From Thiohalorhabdus sp. Cl-TMA (lineage in GTDB: Bacteria > Pseudomonadota > Gammaproteobacteria > Thiohalorhabdales > Thiohalorhabdaceae), in the NCBI RefSeq assembly GCF_041821045.1, contig NZ_JBGUAW010000005.1:62001-126000 (forward strand): a DNA stretch of 64,000 nt. Reading direction: 5' to 3'. Below, in pieces: positions 1-24,619 of this stretch (position 1 is its first letter; the number at the start of each line of letters is the position of its first letter). Under the pieces are notes generated by a model. That model saw only the letters and a program-made list of their open reading frames with translations, did no database searches and was not told the origin of the DNA. Position numbers and translations under genes: made by a program.

Positions 1-192
1 ACCGCGGAAGGAAGGGCACACCGGACGCGGGGACGGAGCGAAAATCATCCTCGACAAAGGTGGAAATCTTTGGTTTGTTCCTACCTGCTTTGAAAAAGGG
101 GCTGCATAGTACACAATCCCACTCGCAGAGTTGCCGATCCGGGATGGTTTGCGGTAAAAAAGGCCCCGTCAGGCCCGAACAGGAGAGCCCAC

Positions 193-3171
193 ATGCCGAA
201 ATCCGCCCACCCAGGGCGCCTGCGCAACCCATCTCGGGCCCGTCCGACTTCGTCCGCCAAGGCCGGCTCGGCCGCCGTGGTATTCGGTGGATTCATGGCC
301 GTGTCCCCGGCCACGATGGCCCTTGGACTGGGCGACCTTCAGGTCGAGTCCAAGCTGGGCAGCCCGCTGCACGCTGAGGCGCCGATTCACCTCAGCGGGG
401 GGGAATCCGGTTCGCCCCTGGAAGCCACCCTGGCCGCTCCGGCGGACTACGAGATGGTGGGGAAATCCCCTTCGCCCGTTGTAAACCAGATCCAGGTCCG
501 CCTGGTGGGCGACGCCAGTCCCCGCATTGTCATTTCCAGCTCCCGGCCGGTGACCGACCCCCTGTTCGAGGTGATGATCCGGGTGGGGGACGGGGACAAC
601 CAGGTCCTCAAGATGTACACCGTGGCCCTGGATCCCGCCAAGGCGACCCCGCCGCCCTCTGCCGCCAATAGCCGGTCCGCGGAGGCGGAGCCCTCCCGAG
701 CCCGGCAGGCGCAGGACCGGCGCACAAACAGTGCAACCTCCGGTGGCGGCTCCGTGCCGCGCAAGGTCGGCCCGGCGGTGGAGCGCCCCAAGGTAGCCGT
801 CACGGAGGGCTGGTCCAAGCGGAACCGGTACGGCCCCGTCCGCGAAGGGGACACGCTCGCCACCATTGTCCAACGCGTCCGACGGGATCCCTCGGTACCC
901 GAGGAATCCGCTGTGGTGGCCGTCTGGAAGGAAAATCCGGAAGCCTTCATCGACAACAACATGAATCTGCTCCGCCGGGGGGCGGTACTGGAAATGCCGG
1001 AAGAGCAGCGGATCCGGCGGATTCCGGTTGCCGAGGCGCAGAAGACCATTCTGGAACAGCGCCGGGAATGGACGGCTCGCGGGCGCCCGCAGGTGAAGAC
1101 CAATCCCGGCCATGAACGCTACCGCCTCAAGGTGGCCCTGGACCAGTCCGAAAAGGGGAAGCAGGCCGAGGACGGGCCGGAAACCGCCGAACAGCAGGGT
1201 GAGTCCGGGGCGCGGACGGCGGCTGCCGCCTCGGATAAGGCCGATGCGGGAAACCCGGTTTCGGGCGCCTCCGGGGAAAAGCCCGACCTGAAGGAGGCCG
1301 CCGCGGCGGCCGGCCAAGCCATTGCCGAAGGGAAGGGAGAGGAGCCTTCCGGCTTGAAGGTGGCGAAGGAGGTCCAGGCCAGCCTGGAGAGCATGCGCGA
1401 GACCCTGGACGCGCGGCGGAGCACCATGAAGGCCACGGTCCAGTCCCTGGAGAATCGGATCACCTCCCTCAATGACCAGGTGGACCAGCAGAAGAGCCTG
1501 ATCGCCAAGCAGAGCGAGGCCATGTCCCGGATCGCCACCGGGAGCAACAACGGATCCGGGGGCATGCCGGGCCGGGATCGCTACGTACTCTGGATGCTCG
1601 CGGGTATTAATCTGCTCATGCTGCTGGCCATTCTCGCCCTCTGGCGCAGGATCCGGGGCACTGAAACGACTCCGGCGCCGGCCGGGGGCGGCGGGGAGAC
1701 GCCGCAGCCCGCCGCCGATACCGCGGAGCTGGATCCCTTGAGCGAGGCCAATGCCCAGGTGGCGTCCGGCGAGCTCAAGCAGGCCCGCTCCACCCTCTGG
1801 GAGGCGCTGGCGGTGGACCCTCGAAATTGGGCGCTCTATGGAAGGTTGCTGGACCTGTACGAGCAGGAAGGGGACGCGGACCAGTTCGAGGAGGTCGCGC
1901 GCCGCCTCTTCGCCCAGCTCGGCGGCGAGCACCGGGAATGGCAGGAGGAGGTTCGCGGCCGGGGTCGCCAGCTCAAACCGGAGAGCACCCTGTTCGCCGC
2001 TTTGGGGGATCAGCCCGGGGACGGGTCGGATGTGCCCACCTTCGATATGGATGACTTCGACCTGGGCGTGACGGAAGAGACGGACCCCGAGGAGGCCGCA
2101 GCGGATCCGGGACGGGAAGCAGCGGAGCAGGACGAGGGTGAGGGTGCCTTCGACTTCGACCTGGAAGCCGATTCAGGGGCTGCCGGAGCGGCGGAGGCGG
2201 ACGCCCCGGAGGGAGTCGCTGCTCTGGAAGAGGACACTACGGGATCCGCTCCGGAATCGGAGGAGGACCTGACCTTCTCCCTCGACGAGGAAAGTACCGA
2301 ACCGACTGCAGAAGAAGCGGAAGCGGATGATGAACCGGCGGCCTCCACGGCGGAGGAGGACGATGATCTGGAGCTCGATCTGAGCCTGGATGCCGAGGCG
2401 ACGGGCGACAGCGGGGAAACGACGCCCGAAATGCCCGCCCCGAACGGAGAGTCGGAAAAGGATTCCCCGGAGTCCTTCCCGGATGAATCGTCCGAAGGGG
2501 GACAGTTCTCCGCCGACGAGCCCGAAGGGGACCTGGAATTCGATCTCAGCCTTTCGGATACCGAGGAGCCGGAAGCCGGGACCGGAGAATCGGAGTCGGA
2601 AAGCGACGCCATCGCCTCTGAGAATGACTTCAGCATGGCGGAAGGGCTGGAATGGCCCGGTACTGAAGAAGAGGAGCCTTCCACGCCGGAGACGCCGGAT
2701 ACCCCCGGGCCGGAGGAAGCCGAAGACGGGGGCGAGCTGGACCTGGAGCTGCCCGAGCCAGAGGGGGAGACCGGCTACGAGCTCTTCACGGAATCGGAAG
2801 GGCCGGAAGATTCCTCCGGGACCGGGGAACCCCGGAGCGCTTTCGGGGACGAAGCCGGCACGGCGGAGGAGGACGATGGAGAGCTGGATCTCAGTCTTTC
2901 CGAGGAAGATCTGGATCTCGGCGGTTCCGATACTTGGGGTGAGAACGATTCCTGGACGGAGCTGGATACCGACCCGGAAGATGCCGCTTCGGAGGGGCTC
3001 GGGGGCAACGGCCAGGACGAGGACGAGTTCGAGATCAAGCTGGATCTTGCGCAGGCCTGGATCGACATGGGCGACCAGGAATCCGCCAAGGGGCTTCTGC
3101 AGGAGGTGGAGGCCCGCGGCGGGAGCGGCCAGCAGGAGCGGGCCCGGAAGCTGCTCGCGACCCTGGCTTGA
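193..3171 (+). CDS. fimV: FimV-like inner-membrane polar/pilus assembly protein
   Basis: A 992-residue protein with FimV architecture. A signal-like hydrophobic stretch is followed by the conserved FimV N-domain beginning near LGLGDLQVESKLGSPLHA (about residues 44-150). A LysM-like segment spans about 215-285 (peptidoglycan binding), then a coiled region, one membrane helix near 463-485, and a very long Asp/Glu-rich cytoplasmic linker with recurrent DLELDLSL-type blocks. The FimV C-terminal helix-rich domain (about 944-992) closes it. Known FimV proteins organise the cell pole and support type IV pilus assembly and cAMP signalling; that role is inferred here. ATG start preceded by an AGGAGA-like site. 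fimV-truA-trpF is the usual gammaproteobacterial order, here with one extra gene before truA. The linker composition fits a low-pI, possibly halophilic proteome. Confidence 0.88.
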   Translation: MPKSAHPGRLRNPSRARPTSSAKAGSAAVVFGGFMAVSPATMALGLGDLQVESKLGSPLHAEAPIHLSGGESGSPLEATLAAPADYEMVGKSPSPVVNQIQVRLVGDASPRIVISSSRPVTDPLFEVMIRVGDGDNQVLKMYTVALDPAKATPPPSAANSRSAEAEPSRARQAQDRRTNSATSGGGSVPRKVGPAVERPKVAVTEGWSKRNRYGPVREGDTLATIVQRVRRDPSVPEESAVVAVWKENPEAFIDNNMNLLRRGAVLEMPEEQRIRRIPVAEAQKTILEQRREWTARGRPQVKTNPGHERYRLKVALDQSEKGKQAEDGPETAEQQGESGARTAAAASDKADAGNPVSGASGEKPDLKEAAAAAGQAIAEGKGEEPSGLKVAKEVQASLESMRETLDARRSTMKATVQSLENRITSLNDQVDQQKSLIAKQSEAMSRIATGSNNGSGGMPGRDRYVLWMLAGINLLMLLAILALWRRIRGTETTPAPAGGGGETPQPAADTAELDPLSEANAQVASGELKQARSTLWEALAVDPRNWALYGRLLDLYEQEGDADQFEEVARRLFAQLGGEHREWQEEVRGRGRQLKPESTLFAALGDQPGDGSDVPTFDMDDFDLGVTEETDPEEAAADPGREAAEQDEGEGAFDFDLEADSGAAGAAEADAPEGVAALEEDTTGSAPESEEDLTFSLDEESTEPTAEEAEADDEPAASTAEEDDDLELDLSLDAEATGDSGETTPEMPAPNGESEKDSPESFPDESSEGGQFSADEPEGDLEFDLSLSDTEEPEAGTGESESESDAIASENDFSMAEGLEWPGTEEEEPSTPETPDTPGPEEAEDGGELDLELPEPEGETGYELFTESEGPEDSSGTGEPRSAFGDEAGTAEEDDGELDLSLSEEDLDLGGSDTWGENDSWTELDTDPEDAASEGLGGNGQDEDEFEIKLDLAQAWIDMGDQESAKGLLQEVEARGGSGQQERARKLLATLA

Positions 3172-18484: not shown

Positions 18485-21415
18485 TCACGCCCGCAGGGAG
18501 GCGAGGCGCTGCCGCTGGTCCCGGAGCTGTTGCTGCCGGTCCCCGAGCTCGGTGAGCTTCTCCCGCTCCTTGGCCACGACATCGGCCGGGGCCTTGTCGC
18601 GGAAGCTGGGGTTATCGAGCTTCTTGCGGCTGCGCTCCAGGTCCGCATCCACCTTCTCCAGCTCCTTGTCCAGGCGCTGGATCTCCGCTTCCACGTCGAT
18701 GAGCCCCTCCAGCGGCACCAGGATCTGGAGGTCGCCGACGAGGCCGGTGGCCGACTGCGGCGGCTCTTCACCCTCCGGGACCCAGTCCAGGGATTCCGGG
18801 CGCGCCAGGGCGTCGATCAGGGCGCGCTGGTCGCGGACCCGCGCCCGGTCATCATCGCCGCCGCCGCGCAGCAGCAGGGGAATGGCCCGGTTCGGATTGA
18901 TGTTCATCTCGCCCCGGATGGAGCGCACCGCGCCCACGAATCCTTCCAGCCATTCGAATTCGGCCTCGGCCTCGGAGTCCATGCGCCCTTCGTCGGCCTC
19001 CGGATAGGGCTGCCGCATGATGGTGGCCCCTTCCTTGTCGGCCAGGGGCGCAACCTTCTGCCAGATCTCCTCGGTGATGAAGGGCATGAAGGGGTGCAGC
19101 AGGCGCAGGCTGGCTTCGAGCACGCGGATCATGGTGCGTCGGGCGCTCTCGGCGGCGGTCTGCTCCCCGCTGTTCAGCGCCGGCTTCACCAGCTCCAGGT
19201 ACCAGTCGCAGTAGCTGTGCCAGATGAAGTCGTAGGCCGCGTGGGCGGCGTCGTTGAAGCGGTAGGCCTCCATGGCCTCGACCACCTCCGCCTCCGTGCG
19301 CTGCAGCTGGGAGATGATCCAGCGGTCCGCCCAGCGCAGCTCGGTGTCCGCGGCGGGCGGCTCGGAGACGTGCATGAGGTTGAAGCGGGCGGCGTTCCAG
19401 AGCTTGGTGCAGAAGTTGCGGTAGCCCTCGATTCGGCCCAGGTCGAACTTGATGTCGCGGCCCATGGTGGCCAGGGAGGCGAAGGTGAAGCGCAGGGCGT
19501 CGGCGCCGAAGGGCGGTATTCCCTCGGGGAACTCCTTGCGGGTCATCTTCTCCACGGCCTTGGCCTTGGCCGGCTGCATCATGGCGCTGGTGCGCTTCTC
19601 CACCAGCGCCTCCAGGTCGATGCCGTCGATGAGGTCCAGGGGGTCGAGGACGTTGCCCTTGGACTTGCTCATCTTGTTGCCCTCGGAGTCGCGCACCAGG
19701 CCGTGCACGTACACCTCCCTGAAAGGCACGTCGCCCATGAACTTGCACCCCATCATGATCATGCGGGCCACCCAGAAGAAGATGATGTCGAAGCCGGTGA
19801 CCAGCACCGAGGTGGGGTAGAAGGTGGCCAGCTCCCTGGTGTCCGCGGGCCAGCCCAGGGTAGAGAAGGGCCACAGGGCGGAGGAGAACCAGGTGTCCAG
19901 GACGTCCGGATCCTGGATCAGGAGGGTGCTGCCGCAGTGGGGGCACTGGCTGGGCGTTTGCTCGCCGTCGCCGGGAACGATGGGGGTGGCCTCCGAGCCC
20001 ACGCTGACGTGCTCGATCTGGTCGAGGACGGTGGCCAGGTCGAACTCGTGGTATTTGAGCCAGGCCGGGGAGGCGGGCCCCACTTTGACGCCGTCGAGCT
20101 CCAGGTCGTGGGCGGCCAGCTTGAGGTGATTCTCGTCGCATTCGGCGCAGTACCAGACCGGCACCCGGTGGCCCCACCAGATCTGGCGGCTGATGCACCA
20201 GTCCTCCAGGTTGCGCATCCACTCGAAGTAGGTCTTGGCCCAGTTCTCCGGGACGAAGCGGATGTCGCCGTTCTCCACCGCCTCGATGGCCGGTTCGGCG
20301 AGCGGGTCCACCTTTACGAACCACTGGTCGGTGAGGAAGGGCTCGATGACCGTGCCGGAGCGGTCGCCGCGGGGCACCATGAGGGTGTGCTCCTCCACGG
20401 CTTCCAGGAGGCCCCGGGTCTCCAGGTCCGCCACGACCCGCTCGCGGGCCTCGTAGCGGTCCAGGCCCTGGTAGGCGGGCGGGGCGTTTTGGTTGATGCG
20501 GGCGTCGTCAGTGAGGATGTTGAGCTGCGGCAAGTCGTGGCGCCGGCCCATCTCGTAGTCGTTGAAGTCGTGGGCCGGGGTGATCTTGACGCAGCCGCTG
20601 CCGAACTCGGGGTCCACGTATTCGTCGGCGATGACGGGGATCTCCCGCTCGGCCAGGGGCAGCAGGATGGTCTTGCCGATGAGGTGCGTGTAGCGCTCAT
20701 CCTCGGGGTGCACCGCAACCGCCTGGTCGCCGAGCATGGTCTCGGGGCGGGTGGTGGCCACGATCACGTGCCCGGAGCCGTCGGAAAGCGGATAGCGGAA
20801 GTGCCAGAGGTGGCCGGCTTCCTCCTCCGACTCCACCTCCAGGTCGGAGATGGCGGTGTGGAGCACCGGGTCCCAGTTCACGAGGCGCTGGCCGCGGTAG
20901 ATGAGACCTTCCCGGAACAGGCGCACGAACACCTCGTTCACCGCCTGCGACAGGCCGGCGTCCATGGTGAATCGCTCGCGCGACCAGTCGGCGCTGGCGC
21001 CCATGCGGCGGAGCTGCTGGCTGATGACGTTGCCGGACGTCTCTTTCCATTCCCAGACCCGGTCCATGAAGGCCTGCCGTCCCAGGTCATGCCGGGTTCG
21101 GCCCTCCTGCTCCAGCTGACGCTCCACCACCATCTGGGTGGCGATGCCGGCGTGGTCGGAGCCGGGCTGCCACAGGGTGCGGTGGCCCCGCATGCGGTGG
21201 TACCGGGTCAGGGCATCCATGAGCGTGTCCTGGAAGGCGTGTCCCATATGGAGGGTGCCCGTGACGTTGGGCGGCGGGATCATGATGGCGAAGGGCGGGG
21301 CGTCCGCCTCCATGTCGGGACTGAAGTAGCCGTTCGCCTCCCAGTGGGCGTACCACCGGGTCTCCACGTCCTCGGGATCGTAAGTCTTGGGCAGGGAATC
21401 GGATGGCTGCGTCAT
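18485..21415 (-). CDS. valS: Valyl-tRNA synthetase
   Basis: 976 residues, class I synthetase. The HIGH-type motif is HMGH at residues 56-59 within [15 protein letters not shown], and KMSKSKGN lies near residue 580. The editing (CP1) domain with [10 protein letters not shown] is present, followed by the anticodon-binding domain ([11 protein letters not shown]) and the C-terminal coiled coil that contacts tRNA. The ATG at 21415 gives the usual start ([17 protein letters not shown]); the frame is open about 38 codons upstream without family support. It is separated from the PopZ-like gene by 156 bp containing a terminator. Confidence 0.97.
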
Positions 21416-21495: not shown

Positions 21496-21538
21496 AAAAA
21501 CCAAAAAACCCCCCGACCCAGCGGATCAAGGGGCTCGG
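21496..21538 (-). terminator. Terminator between the PopZ-like gene and valS
   Basis: On the minus strand, CCGAGCCC pairs with GGGTCGG (one bulge) and is followed by a run of G then TTTTTT and a second T tract. It lies about 35 bp after the PopZ-like stop, so valS probably has its own promoter or is read through partially. Confidence 0.65.
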
Positions 21539-21571: not shown

Positions 21572-22624
21572 TCACTCCCCCTTCTTGATGCGCTCGATCT
21601 CCGCCTCGGCCAGCTCGCGGAGCAGCTCGGGCAGCCGCTCTTCCAGGTATCCTTGCAGAGCTTCCCGGATTTTGGGCTCGAGGGCGGCCGCCAAGGCGGA
21701 ATCCAGGTCGGCGGTGGCCTTGGCCACCTGCTCACTGACGGTCTCCTGGACGGTGCTTCTCAGAGCCTCCTCGTCCACCTCCGGCGCCGCGGCGGGGGCG
21801 GGCTGTTCCGAGGGCGCCGGCTCCGTGGTTTCGGTCGCCTCCTCCGCCGTGTCCTCTTCCTGCTGAACGGCATGCTCCGGGGCCGGCTCGGGGCCGGGGA
21901 CCGCGGATGGCTCCGGGACCGCTGGGGCGGCTTCCTCGGCTGCGGCAGGCGCCGGGTCGGGCTCGAAATCGGAGGCTTCCGGCGCTGGCTCCTGCGTTTC
22001 GGGCTCGGAGGCTTCGGGCCCGGACTCCGGGGCGGGCGCGGCTTCCGGCTCGGGGGCCGGCTCAGCATGGGAGGCGGTCGCCTCCTCGGGCGGCTCCGGT
22101 GCGGGGCCGTTCTCCTCCCCGCCGGCGGGGGCGGCGGAGTCTTCCTCAGGCTCCGCGCCTTCCAGGATGTCCCGCTCGGCCTCCTCGCGCTCCCAACGGC
22201 CGAACAGGGCGTCGAACTCGGAGGCCTCCGCGGGAATGCCGGCGGTCTCGTCCTCGTCGAGGTTGAAATCGTCTACCGCGAAGTGCCCGGGCACCTCGGC
22301 GGTTTCCGCTCCCGTTTCCGGGGTGTCGGATTCTGGGGTGCCGGATGTCGGGGGACTGGATTCCGCGGTACTATCGGAATCGTTGTCCGTGGTGCTTCCC
22401 TCCTCGACCACCTCGGTCAGGAGCAGCTCGTCGTCGGAGGAAGGGCCCGCCTGATCGCCGGGCTCCGAGCTGCCCGCCTGGCTCGCGGCCTCCGTCTCCT
22501 CCTGATCCTCTTCGAGGATGTTGCGGAGACTGGTCAGGATCTCGTCCATGCTCACATCCGAGCCGTTGCCCTGGGGGCTCAGGCTTTCGGAGGAAGCGGA
22601 TTGGTTGCGCTCTTGTTCCGCCAT
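21572..22624 (-). CDS. PopZ/DUF2497-like polar scaffold protein
   Basis: 350 residues in three parts. An N-terminal helix motif at about 24-45 (VSMDEILTSLRNILEEDQ) matches the short N-terminal motif of PopZ-type proteins. A disordered, strongly acidic Pro/Ala/Glu linker spans about 45-275. A helical C-terminal region ends LEPKIREALQGYL then EERLPELLRELAEAEIERI (about 309-350), matching the oligomerisation region of the DUF2497 family. In Caulobacter PopZ forms polar condensates that anchor ParB and recruit signalling proteins; the linker there is also Pro/Glu/Asp-rich but shorter. The family is best known in alphaproteobacteria, where I recall it beside valS, as here. The role in this organism is inferred. 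ATG start; holC lies 67 bp upstream. Confidence 0.72.
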   Translation of the reverse strand: MAEQERNQSASSESLSPQGNGSDVSMDEILTSLRNILEEDQEETEAASQAGSSEPGDQAGPSSDDELLLTEVVEEGSTTDNDSDSTAESSPPTSGTPESDTPETGAETAEVPGHFAVDDFNLDEDETAGIPAEASEFDALFGRWEREEAERDILEGAEPEEDSAAPAGGEENGPAPEPPEEATASHAEPAPEPEAAPAPESGPEASEPETQEPAPEASDFEPDPAPAAAEEAAPAVPEPSAVPGPEPAPEHAVQQEEDTAEEATETTEPAPSEQPAPAAAPEVDEEALRSTVQETVSEQVAKATADLDSALAAALEPKIREALQGYLEERLPELLRELAEAEIERIKKGE

Positions 22625-22691
22625 GCTTGGTCCCTTGGCGCCGCGGTCCGGGAAATTGGCCGTTCAGTATCGGGTCGGCTCGTGCCGCCTG

Positions 22692-23132
22692 TCAATTGAC
22701 GCGCAAATCGTGGGTGTGGAGCTCGTAGCCGGCCTGCCGGTACTCGCTGTATCGCCGCCGGGCCGCATCCCGTCCGGCCTGTTCCGTGGGAACGAACTCC
22801 GCCACCCGCTGGAATCCGGAGAGGCAATCCGGCGGCGGCGGACTGACGCAGACCAGAACCTCGGCATCGCCGCTTTCGGCGCAGTCCCGGGACAGGACCA
22901 CGGGCTCGGGAGCCGCCGCGTCGAGGCGCTCCCGGCGCGCATGGGGCACGAAGCTGCCGGCCCGATAGGTCCACAGGCGGTTATCCAGGTCATCGAGAAG
23001 GGCCTCGGAAGCCGCGAACAGCAGTACTCGGTACCCGGATCCGTAGGCCTTGCCCGCCACCATGCAGGCAGCCTGCAGGACGGCGGTTTCCCCGTCCCCT
23101 TGGATGCGGAAGAAATCCACCCGCGGGCTCAT
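22692..23132 (-). CDS. holC: DNA polymerase III chi subunit
   Basis: 146 residues, the normal length. HolC links the clamp loader to SSB. Typical features are VDFFRI at the N-terminus, ACMVAGKAYGSGYRVLLFA, LDNRLWTYRAGSFVPHA and the C-terminal RRRYSEYRQAGYELHTHD. The start overlaps the pepA stop by 4 bp (ATGA). pepA-holC-valS is the standard order; here the PopZ-like gene is inserted between holC and valS. Confidence 0.93.
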   Translation of the reverse strand: MSPRVDFFRIQGDGETAVLQAACMVAGKAYGSGYRVLLFAASEALLDDLDNRLWTYRAGSFVPHARRERLDAAAPEPVVLSRDCAESGDAEVLVCVSPPPPDCLSGFQRVAEFVPTEQAGRDAARRRYSEYRQAGYELHTHDLRVN

Positions 23133-24619
23133 CCAGTCGCGCGCTCCACCAGGTACTGGCTGATCATGCGCACGGGATGGCCGGTGGCGGTCTTGTTGTC
23201 ACCGCTCTTCCAGGCCACGCCGGCGATATCCACGTGGGCCCACTCGTAATCTTCGGTGAACCGGGACAGGAAGCAGCCGGCGGTGATGGTTCCGGCCTCG
23301 CGGCCGCCCACGTTCTTCATGTCGGCGAAATTGCTCTTGAGCTGTTCCTGGTAGTCGTCCCAGAGGGGCAGCTGCCAGCCCCGCTCCCCGGACTCGTCCC
23401 CGGCGTCCATGAGCTCGCGTACCAGCCGGTCGTTGTTGCCCATCAGGCCGGCGGCGTTCTTGCCGAGCGCCACCACACAGGCGCCGGTGAGCGTGGCCAT
23501 GTCGATCACCACCCGGGGGTCGTAGCGCTGGATCCAGCTCAGGGCGTCCGCGAGTACCAAGCGGCCCTCGGCGTCGGTGTTGATGACCTCGATGGTCTGC
23601 CCCGACATGGAGGTCAAAATGTCGCCGGGCCGGTAGGCGTTGGCGTCCGGCAGGTTCTCCGCCGCGGCGGCCACGCCCACCACGTTGATGGGGAGCTGCA
23701 GCTCGGCCACGGCGCGCATGATACCGAATACTCCCGCGGCGCCGCACATATCATACTTCATCTCGTCCATGGCCGCCGCCGGCTTGATGGAGATGCCGCC
23801 CGAATCGAAGGAGATGCCCTTGCCCACCAGTACGTAGGGCTTGTCGCCCTTGGCACCGCCCTGGTACTCCATGGCCATCAGCCGGGGCGGGTTCACAGAG
23901 CCCTGACCCACGGCCAGGAAGGCACCCATTCCTTGCTCTTGCATCTGCTTCTCGTCCAGCACGGTCAGGCCCAGGTTCCACTCGTTGGCGAGGGCCTCTG
24001 CCTGCTCGGCCATGTAGACCGGGGTGGCCACATTGGGCGGCTGGTTGGCAAGGTCCCGGGCGAGCGTCACCCCGTTGGCGTAGGCGAGCCCCCGGTCCAC
24101 GGCGGCCTGCCCCTCGCGGAGGTCGCTTCGGCGGGGGACACAGAAGGTCAGACGACGCAGCGGTCGGCGGGGCTTTTCCGTCTTGGACTTGTACTGGTCG
24201 AAGCGGTAGAGGGCCAGGGCTCCGGATTCCGTGGCGGCGCGTACCTTCCACTCGATCTCCCGGCCCTTGACGTGGAGCTCGGGGAAATAGACCACCGCCT
24301 CCATGGAGCCGGTGCCGTCCAGGTGCTTGACCAGCGACTCCACCGTTTCCCGGTAGCGCTTGTCGTCCAGGTCCCGTTCTTTGCCCATGCCCACGAGCAG
24401 GACGCGATCCGGTAGGATATTGGGCAGGTTGTGCAGCATCAGGAACTGCCCCTGGCGTCCTTCCAGGTCTCCGCGGCGAAGCAGCTTGGTCAGGTAGCCG
24501 TCGGTGGCCCGGTCGATGTCGCGGGCCGCCGGGGATAAGCGCCGGGGCTCGAAAACGCCTACCACCACGCATGCAGTTCGCTGTTTTTCGGGGCTTCCGC
24601 TCTTAATGAAGACTTCCAT
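23129..24619 (-). CDS. pepA: Leucyl (cytosol) aminopeptidase A
   Basis: 496 residues, M17 family; hexameric metallo-aminopeptidase that in E. coli also binds DNA in Xer recombination and carAB control. The C-terminal catalytic domain shows GKGISFDSGGISIKPA and MKYDMCGAAGV and the signature NTDAEGRLVLAD with the metal-binding Asp/Glu residues. The N-terminal domain covers about residues 1-170. ATG start; divergent from lptF across a 325-bp intergenic region, the classical gammaproteobacterial arrangement. Confidence 0.96.
   Translation of the reverse strand: MEVFIKSGSPEKQRTACVVVGVFEPRRLSPAARDIDRATDGYLTKLLRRGDLEGRQGQFLMLHNLPNILPDRVLLVGMGKERDLDDKRYRETVESLVKHLDGTGSMEAVVYFPELHVKGREIEWKVRAATESGALALYRFDQYKSKTEKPRRPLRRLTFCVPRRSDLREGQAAVDRGLAYANGVTLARDLANQPPNVATPVYMAEQAEALANEWNLGLTVLDEKQMQEQGMGAFLAVGQGSVNPPRLMAMEYQGGAKGDKPYVLVGKGISFDSGGISIKPAAAMDEMKYDMCGAAGVFGIMRAVAELQLPINVVGVAAAAENLPDANAYRPGDILTSMSGQTIEVINTDAEGRLVLADALSWIQRYDPRVVIDMATLTGACVVALGKNAAGLMGNNDRLVRELMDAGDESGERGWQLPLWDDYQEQLKSNFADMKNVGGREAGTITAGCFLSRFTEDYEWAHVDIAGVAWKSGDNKTATGHPVRMISQYLVERATG

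Follow-up and report, generated by a model that had tools for sequence, protein, structure and literature searches.

Whether a gammaproteobacterium can carry a pole-organising protein of the PopZ type, and how it could have come by one, is the question raised by an open reading frame next to valS in Thiohalorhabdus sp. Cl-TMA. The poles of gammaproteobacteria are usually explained by FimV/HubP. The gene was analysed within a window of 64,000 nucleotides (contig NZ_JBGUAW010000005.1, positions 62,001 to 126,000), the features of which are collected in Table 1. A primary paper of 2022 restricts PopZ to the alphaproteobacteria (PMC9512792); a gammaproteobacterial homolog stands against that statement.

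Genomic context of the popZ-like gene

On the minus strand of the window, the genes are arranged in the order pepA, holC, popZ-like ORF and valS, and all three neighbours passed the Pfam cut-offs. The ORF has the coordinates and strand of the original prediction and encodes 350 aa. The two further genomes of the genus carry orthologs at the same place (51% and 40% identity over the whole protein), and the two end blocks are nearly invariant across the three proteins while the linker diverges; the ORF is thus not a chance frame. Purifying selection on the ends was judged from this conservation.

Both hexamers of the promoter-like site and their spacing are identical in all three species of the genus, with a changed spacer sequence, and the core of the terminator-like hairpin (GGGGG-TTTTTGG) is likewise conserved in 3/3. 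Based on the conservation of these two signals, the popZ-like gene looks like a transcription unit of its own. A phage origin was discarded, since no relatives of the protein were found in viral contigs.

Table 1. Features of the window discussed in the text.
Feature	Position	Strand	Details
FimV/HubP polar landmark protein	94..3168	+	FimV_core E 5.9e-19, FimV_Cterm E 1.5e-14; separate locus
valS	18485..21415	-	tRNA-synt_1 E 5.9e-148
Intrinsic-terminator-like hairpin with T-run	21506..21536	-	between popZ-like gene and valS
popZ-like gene	21572..22624	-	350 aa; ORF; orthologs in both other genus genomes
C-terminal DUF2497-type helical (oligomerisation) region	21575..21772	-	aa 285-350; PF10691 match 286-347
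Acidic disordered linker	21773..22477	-	aa 50-284; pLDDT mostly <50, net charge
Middle motif DELLLTEVVEEG	22397..22432	-	aa 65-76; matches motif of gammaproteobacterial holC-valS ORFs
N-terminal conserved block and helix	22478..22561	-	aa 22-49, SDVSMDEILTSLRNILEEDQ...; profile score, AlphaFold2
Promoter-like site TTGACA-N18-GATACT	22666..22695	-	sigma-70-like; overlaps holC stop codon
holC, DNA polymerase III chi	22692..23132	-	PF04364 E 7.6e-33
pepA, leucyl aminopeptidase	23129..24619	-	PF00883 E 3.8e-130

Layout of the protein

The two conserved parts on which the original prediction was based were confirmed at residues 25-40 (SMDEILTSLRNILEED) and 315-346 (LEPKIREALQGYLEERLPELLRELAEAEIERI). 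Hardly any variation is seen across the genus in the N-terminal block S[DE][VI]SMDEILTSLR.ILEEDQ or in the last 36 residues of the protein. The AlphaFold2 model shows a helix at 26-49, a mostly disordered linker and a helix at 285-347 with pLDDT values of 87-97; being a single chain, it gives the layout and cannot prove PopZ assembly.

The linker, expected to be acidic, disordered and about 230 residues long, measures 235 aa, with 29% acidic residues, 16% proline and a net charge of -0.277 per residue, close to the -0.28 of the Caulobacter PopZ linker (PMC9512792). The mean linker length in Caulobacterales is 93 aa, and longer linkers were reported to carry a lower charge (PMC9512792); here the linker is about 2.5 times as long as in Caulobacter and its charge is not lowered. 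As a natural PopZ of this linker length and charge density, the protein would be of use for the question, raised in the literature, of how condensate fluidity depends on the length and charge of the linker. The linker is also longer than in 15 outside-class relatives (98-182 aa), but long linkers occur elsewhere as well: a frame of 606 aa next to valS in another Pseudomonadota genome (L045:2395-4212) has the N-terminal motif of PopZ, which indicates a wide range of linker lengths among family members.

Within the linker, a further helix is predicted at aa 132-155 (window 22160-22231, ASEFDALFGRWEREEAERDILEGA), and a similar stretch is present in an ortholog (SQIDGMFEDWGSA). It is possibly an additional client-binding motif.

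Relationship to PopZ

The DUF2497 family named in the original prediction was recovered as the only Pfam match of the protein (PF10691, E 0.0013), at 19.6 bits and therefore below the curated cut-off of 27 bits. It was also the best Pfam match of both orthologs (18.3 and 21.4 bits). The NCBIfam model PopZ_fam matched in two stretches with 31.8 bits (E 3.1e-7), under its cut-off of 125 bits. As these scores lie below the curated cut-offs, homology was tested by means that do not rely on them.

A profile of the three genus proteins was searched against 299 genomes of the phylum. Matches were obtained in 20 genomes from outside the class, while among the gammaproteobacteria of this set there was no match apart from the genus itself. 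For 15 of the 20 outside-class loci, valS adjoins the match, in line with the predicted resemblance to the alphaproteobacterial neighbourhood, where valS adjoins popZ (PMC6414705). At least 16 of the 20 matches have an N-terminus of the SMEEILASIRRII type (EPSMEEILASIRRII type), and most of these also have a DUF2497-type C-terminus. From the valS neighbour and the PopZ-type features, we take these relatives to be alphaproteobacteria.

Profile-profile comparison of the genus with 15 outside-class PopZ-type genes gave an E-value of 5.5e-12 (97.5%). Separate profiles of the N and C blocks were also built from the outside-class relatives only, leaving out the genus, and compared with 200 shuffles. 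The N block scored 23.0 bits in the present protein (best shuffle 2.6) and 19.0-23.0 bits across the genus (best shuffle 3.8); for the C block the values were 16.8 bits (best shuffle below 0) and 16.8-19.8 bits (best shuffle 3.6). Only about 60 residues of PopZ are alignable.

If this were simply an acidic coiled-coil or disordered protein that resembles PopZ by chance, the sub-threshold PF10691 and PopZ_fam scores would be accounted for. Left unexplained would be two separate conserved blocks that score far above shuffles on profiles built without the genus, the recovery of valS-adjacent PopZ-like genes by a profile search, and the valS neighbour shared with PopZ; this explanation is strongly disfavoured and very improbable. 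Searches for other Pfam or PDB families yielded just YqeY in the PDB as a weak match (E 0.26), which was set aside. The PopZ assignment thus holds on the profile search, the profile-profile comparison and both end blocks, and we conclude from the sequence that the protein is homologous to PopZ, though divergent.

With PopZ of Caulobacter and Magnetospirillum (PF10691 DUF2497, NF052660), the protein shares the N-terminal block SM[DE]EIL-S-[IL]R; the LT[DE] motif, the C-terminal helices L..[WY]L...LP.L....EIER, the acidic linker and the valS neighbour are features in common with alphaproteobacterial PopZ. The differences from the latter are the gammaproteobacterial host, the scores under both cut-offs and the upstream neighbour, here holC-pepA. 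The invariant W of the outside-class relatives is Y or F in the genus proteins, and these relatives have DDVLLLTDLIEE/LELTD where the genus has its middle motif. In Caulobacter PopZ, E12 and R19 matter for ParB binding and S22 for ParA binding (PMC10120649). In the alignment, E12 is kept as E28, whereas N35 (S in the orthologs) occupies the position of R19, and E38 that of S22. Since only E12 is kept, the clients may differ from those of Caulobacter; ParB anchoring by the present protein is plausible but not assured.

Three short proteins of 123-134 aa were observed away from valS in outside-class Pseudomonadota (L036:3920-4288, L040:4064-4465 and L041:4057-4449). Each consists of a pair of repeats similar to the C-terminal motif of PopZ, and an N-terminal block is absent. 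With 28.9 and 34 bits, two of the three exceed the PF10691 cut-off, yet their layout is not that of PopZ.

Open reading frames between holC and valS in other gammaproteobacteria

The valS-adjacent neighbourhood across the class, to which the original prediction had pointed, was examined by retrieving the sequence that precedes valS in 100 gammaproteobacterial genomes. In 72 of these, holC was detected upstream and in the same orientation as valS, and an acidic ORF occupies the gap in about 34 of the 72; holC was called by similarity to the HolC of the window, and some gap ORFs may be missed or wrongly started. These ORFs are extremely diverged (9% mean column identity). They share a motif [IV]P[VTIL]Lx[DE][VI]V..PG, of the IPVLxDVVxPG type. 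The C-terminus is helical and in many of them contains L...L..(R)LPEL. A short N-terminal helix is present in a few, e.g. HTLEEVLKSLQDLI (L090). Sister genomes of two carriers contained one further copy each.

No Pfam family could be assigned to them: DUF2486 and DUF2497 were the most frequent matches, each in two of the first 26 members and below threshold, and no single ORF was significant against DUF2497 (best E 0.022). PA3833 and DUF2486 were considered as names of possible equivalents, and a search of the literature on both found nothing relevant. The holC-valS ORF family is undescribed and new in the present analysis.

The ORFs resemble the Thiohalorhabdus protein in place, strand, acidic linker and middle motif, and in an LPEL-type C-terminal helix in register. 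They differ in that they are mostly 80-200 aa long, lack the alpha-type N-terminal block and usually end before the EIERI helix; their middle motif is IPVLxDVVxPG, compared with ELLLTEVVEEG here. Aligned with PopZ, their C-terminal profile falls in the register also seen for the present protein, with a score of 23.8. This score was reached by 0/200 column shuffles (maximum 12.2) and by 0/105 windows of real HolC, PepA and ValS profiles (maximum 13.9), and lies 8 sd above the latter. The reversed profile still scored 16.4, so amphipathic-helix periodicity explains part of the match. A search in the reverse direction placed 11 of 16 PopZ frames among the best 40 of 1659 frames. The middle motif DELLLTEVVEEG matched that of the ORFs with p 0.006 against shuffles (0.002 for the L003 ortholog, 0.066 for the other). 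With the outside-class N profile, no signal of the alpha-type N-terminal block was detected in the ORFs (combined p 0.96).

These comparisons suggest that the holC-valS ORFs are probably diverged relatives of PopZ, in which case they represent a testable gene in many genomes. They could also be unrelated, with position and helical C-terminus due to coincidence or to convergence of acidic scaffold proteins. Such a view accords with their extreme divergence, the absent N-terminal signal, the reversed-profile score and the lack of any individually significant member. It is nevertheless rather unlikely in our judgement, because position and strand next to valS are common to both classes, the profile score stands well clear of the control windows, the middle motif is shared with PopZ of the genus and the reverse search retrieves most PopZ frames.

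Two of the ORFs are very long and acidic (L090:448-2241, 598 aa; L108:1680-3272, 531 aa), and the former contains an N-terminal helix in two copies, TLEEVLKSLQDLI and NLDAVMRSLKDLI. In two other gammaproteobacteria, a gene with the motif IYVSMHPHF..., from which we presume it to be FliL-like, lies between the ORF and valS (L112:2870-3283 and L087:2626-3222), hinting at a flagellar or polar link.

Distribution and origin

Among about 370 gammaproteobacterial genomes (272 genera) searched with profiles, with a second draw that largely overlapped, clear PopZ was seen in the present genus only. Weak matches to the PopZ profile in other gammaproteobacteria were set aside on account of their E-values (0.004-0.04) and their location, mostly inside frames of 716-827 aa. 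A single-sequence search of other gammaproteobacteria with the PopZ-like protein returned nothing, and a scan of genome contigs gave one gammaproteobacterial record.

The original prediction had considered both transfer and an old shared origin. In a ValS tree, the sequence from this genome falls among those of gammaproteobacteria (100/100 support), its identity being 59-63% to gammaproteobacteria and 44-50% to others. It follows that valS did not accompany popZ from an alphaproteobacterium, and a joint transfer of the two genes was rejected. Horizontal transfer of popZ alone, in which the ancestor of the genus received the gene from an alphaproteobacterium and still uses it as a PopZ-type scaffold, remains the main rival. 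A recognisable PopZ in one genus only among the sampled gammaproteobacteria is what transfer predicts, as are N and C blocks that are much closer to outside-class PopZ than those of the other holC-valS ORFs. However, the gene must then have landed by chance upstream of the resident valS and on the same strand, in a gap where candidate diverged versions already sit in roughly one half of those sampled gammaproteobacteria whose holC lies upstream. The middle motif resembles that of the holC-valS ORFs, and the GC content of the gene (70.6%) is near that of its neighbours (66-69%). Transfer is accordingly regarded as improbable, if worth serious consideration.

An old origin is favoured by the grouping of ValS and by the diverged candidates in the same gap of many gammaproteobacteria. 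Since the protein combines PopZ ends as in alphaproteobacteria with a middle motif as in the holC-valS ORFs, one old popZ-valS pairing is the simplest reading, and on these sequence grounds we lean towards such a pairing that diverged strongly in most gammaproteobacteria. The present genus would have kept a recognisable popZ, and the other gammaproteobacteria either a rapidly diverged holC-valS ORF or none. The broader proposal, that PopZ is no alphaproteobacterial innovation but a valS-linked pole scaffold ancestral to Proteobacteria, and that many gammaproteobacteria keep a fast-evolving holC-valS ORF alongside FimV/HubP, is put forward as an even bet. If the PopZ homolog and the diverged locus family across the class are both borne out, the origin of this condensate scaffold moves back to the common ancestor.

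Proposed function and polar partners

The function of the present protein is taken by homology from PopZ, in which the C-terminal part drives oligomerisation, fluidity depends on the acidic linker, and clients are bound by the N-terminal helix (PMC9512792; PMC5182065; PMC10120649). Its C-terminal helices would self-associate into a network, with the long acidic linker maintaining fluidity and porosity, and clients (ParA/ParB or others) would be captured by the short N-terminal helix. The expected outcome is a condensate at a cell pole, with condensate formation, polar location and clients all inferred by analogy with PopZ.

The foundations present here are the PopZ homology, the three-part layout, the conserved ends, the promoter and terminator of its own, and the co-occurrence with ParA, ParB and FimV/HubP, parA and parB both being encoded in the genome. 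Counted against are the scores under the cut-offs, the changed R19 and S22 positions, the one-genus distribution that transfer would also produce, and, in the other holC-valS ORFs, the missing alpha-type N-terminus and the score of the reversed profile. Weighing these points, we hold with fair confidence that the gene is a divergent popZ that most likely works in a PopZ-like manner and most likely descends from a popZ-valS pairing ancestral to alpha- and gammaproteobacteria.

The predicted coexistence with a FimV-like pole protein was borne out, as the candidate in the window passes both NCBIfam FimV/HubP cut-offs. FimV/HubP is also a pole organiser in the same genome and differs in having the FimV core and C-terminal domains; no sequence relation between it and the PopZ-like protein was seen in the family searches (Pfam, NCBIfam).

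ZitP, a PopZ partner, is a membrane-anchored protein with an MJ0042 zinc ribbon, W35 and a basic patch, and in Caulobacter the substitution W35I abolishes PopZ binding (PMC5182065). An MJ0042 zinc-ribbon protein with a ZitP-like layout and a hydrophobic segment is encoded after prmA (L180:1501-2331). It has C5, C8, C28, C31 and R27, and position 35 is F rather than W.
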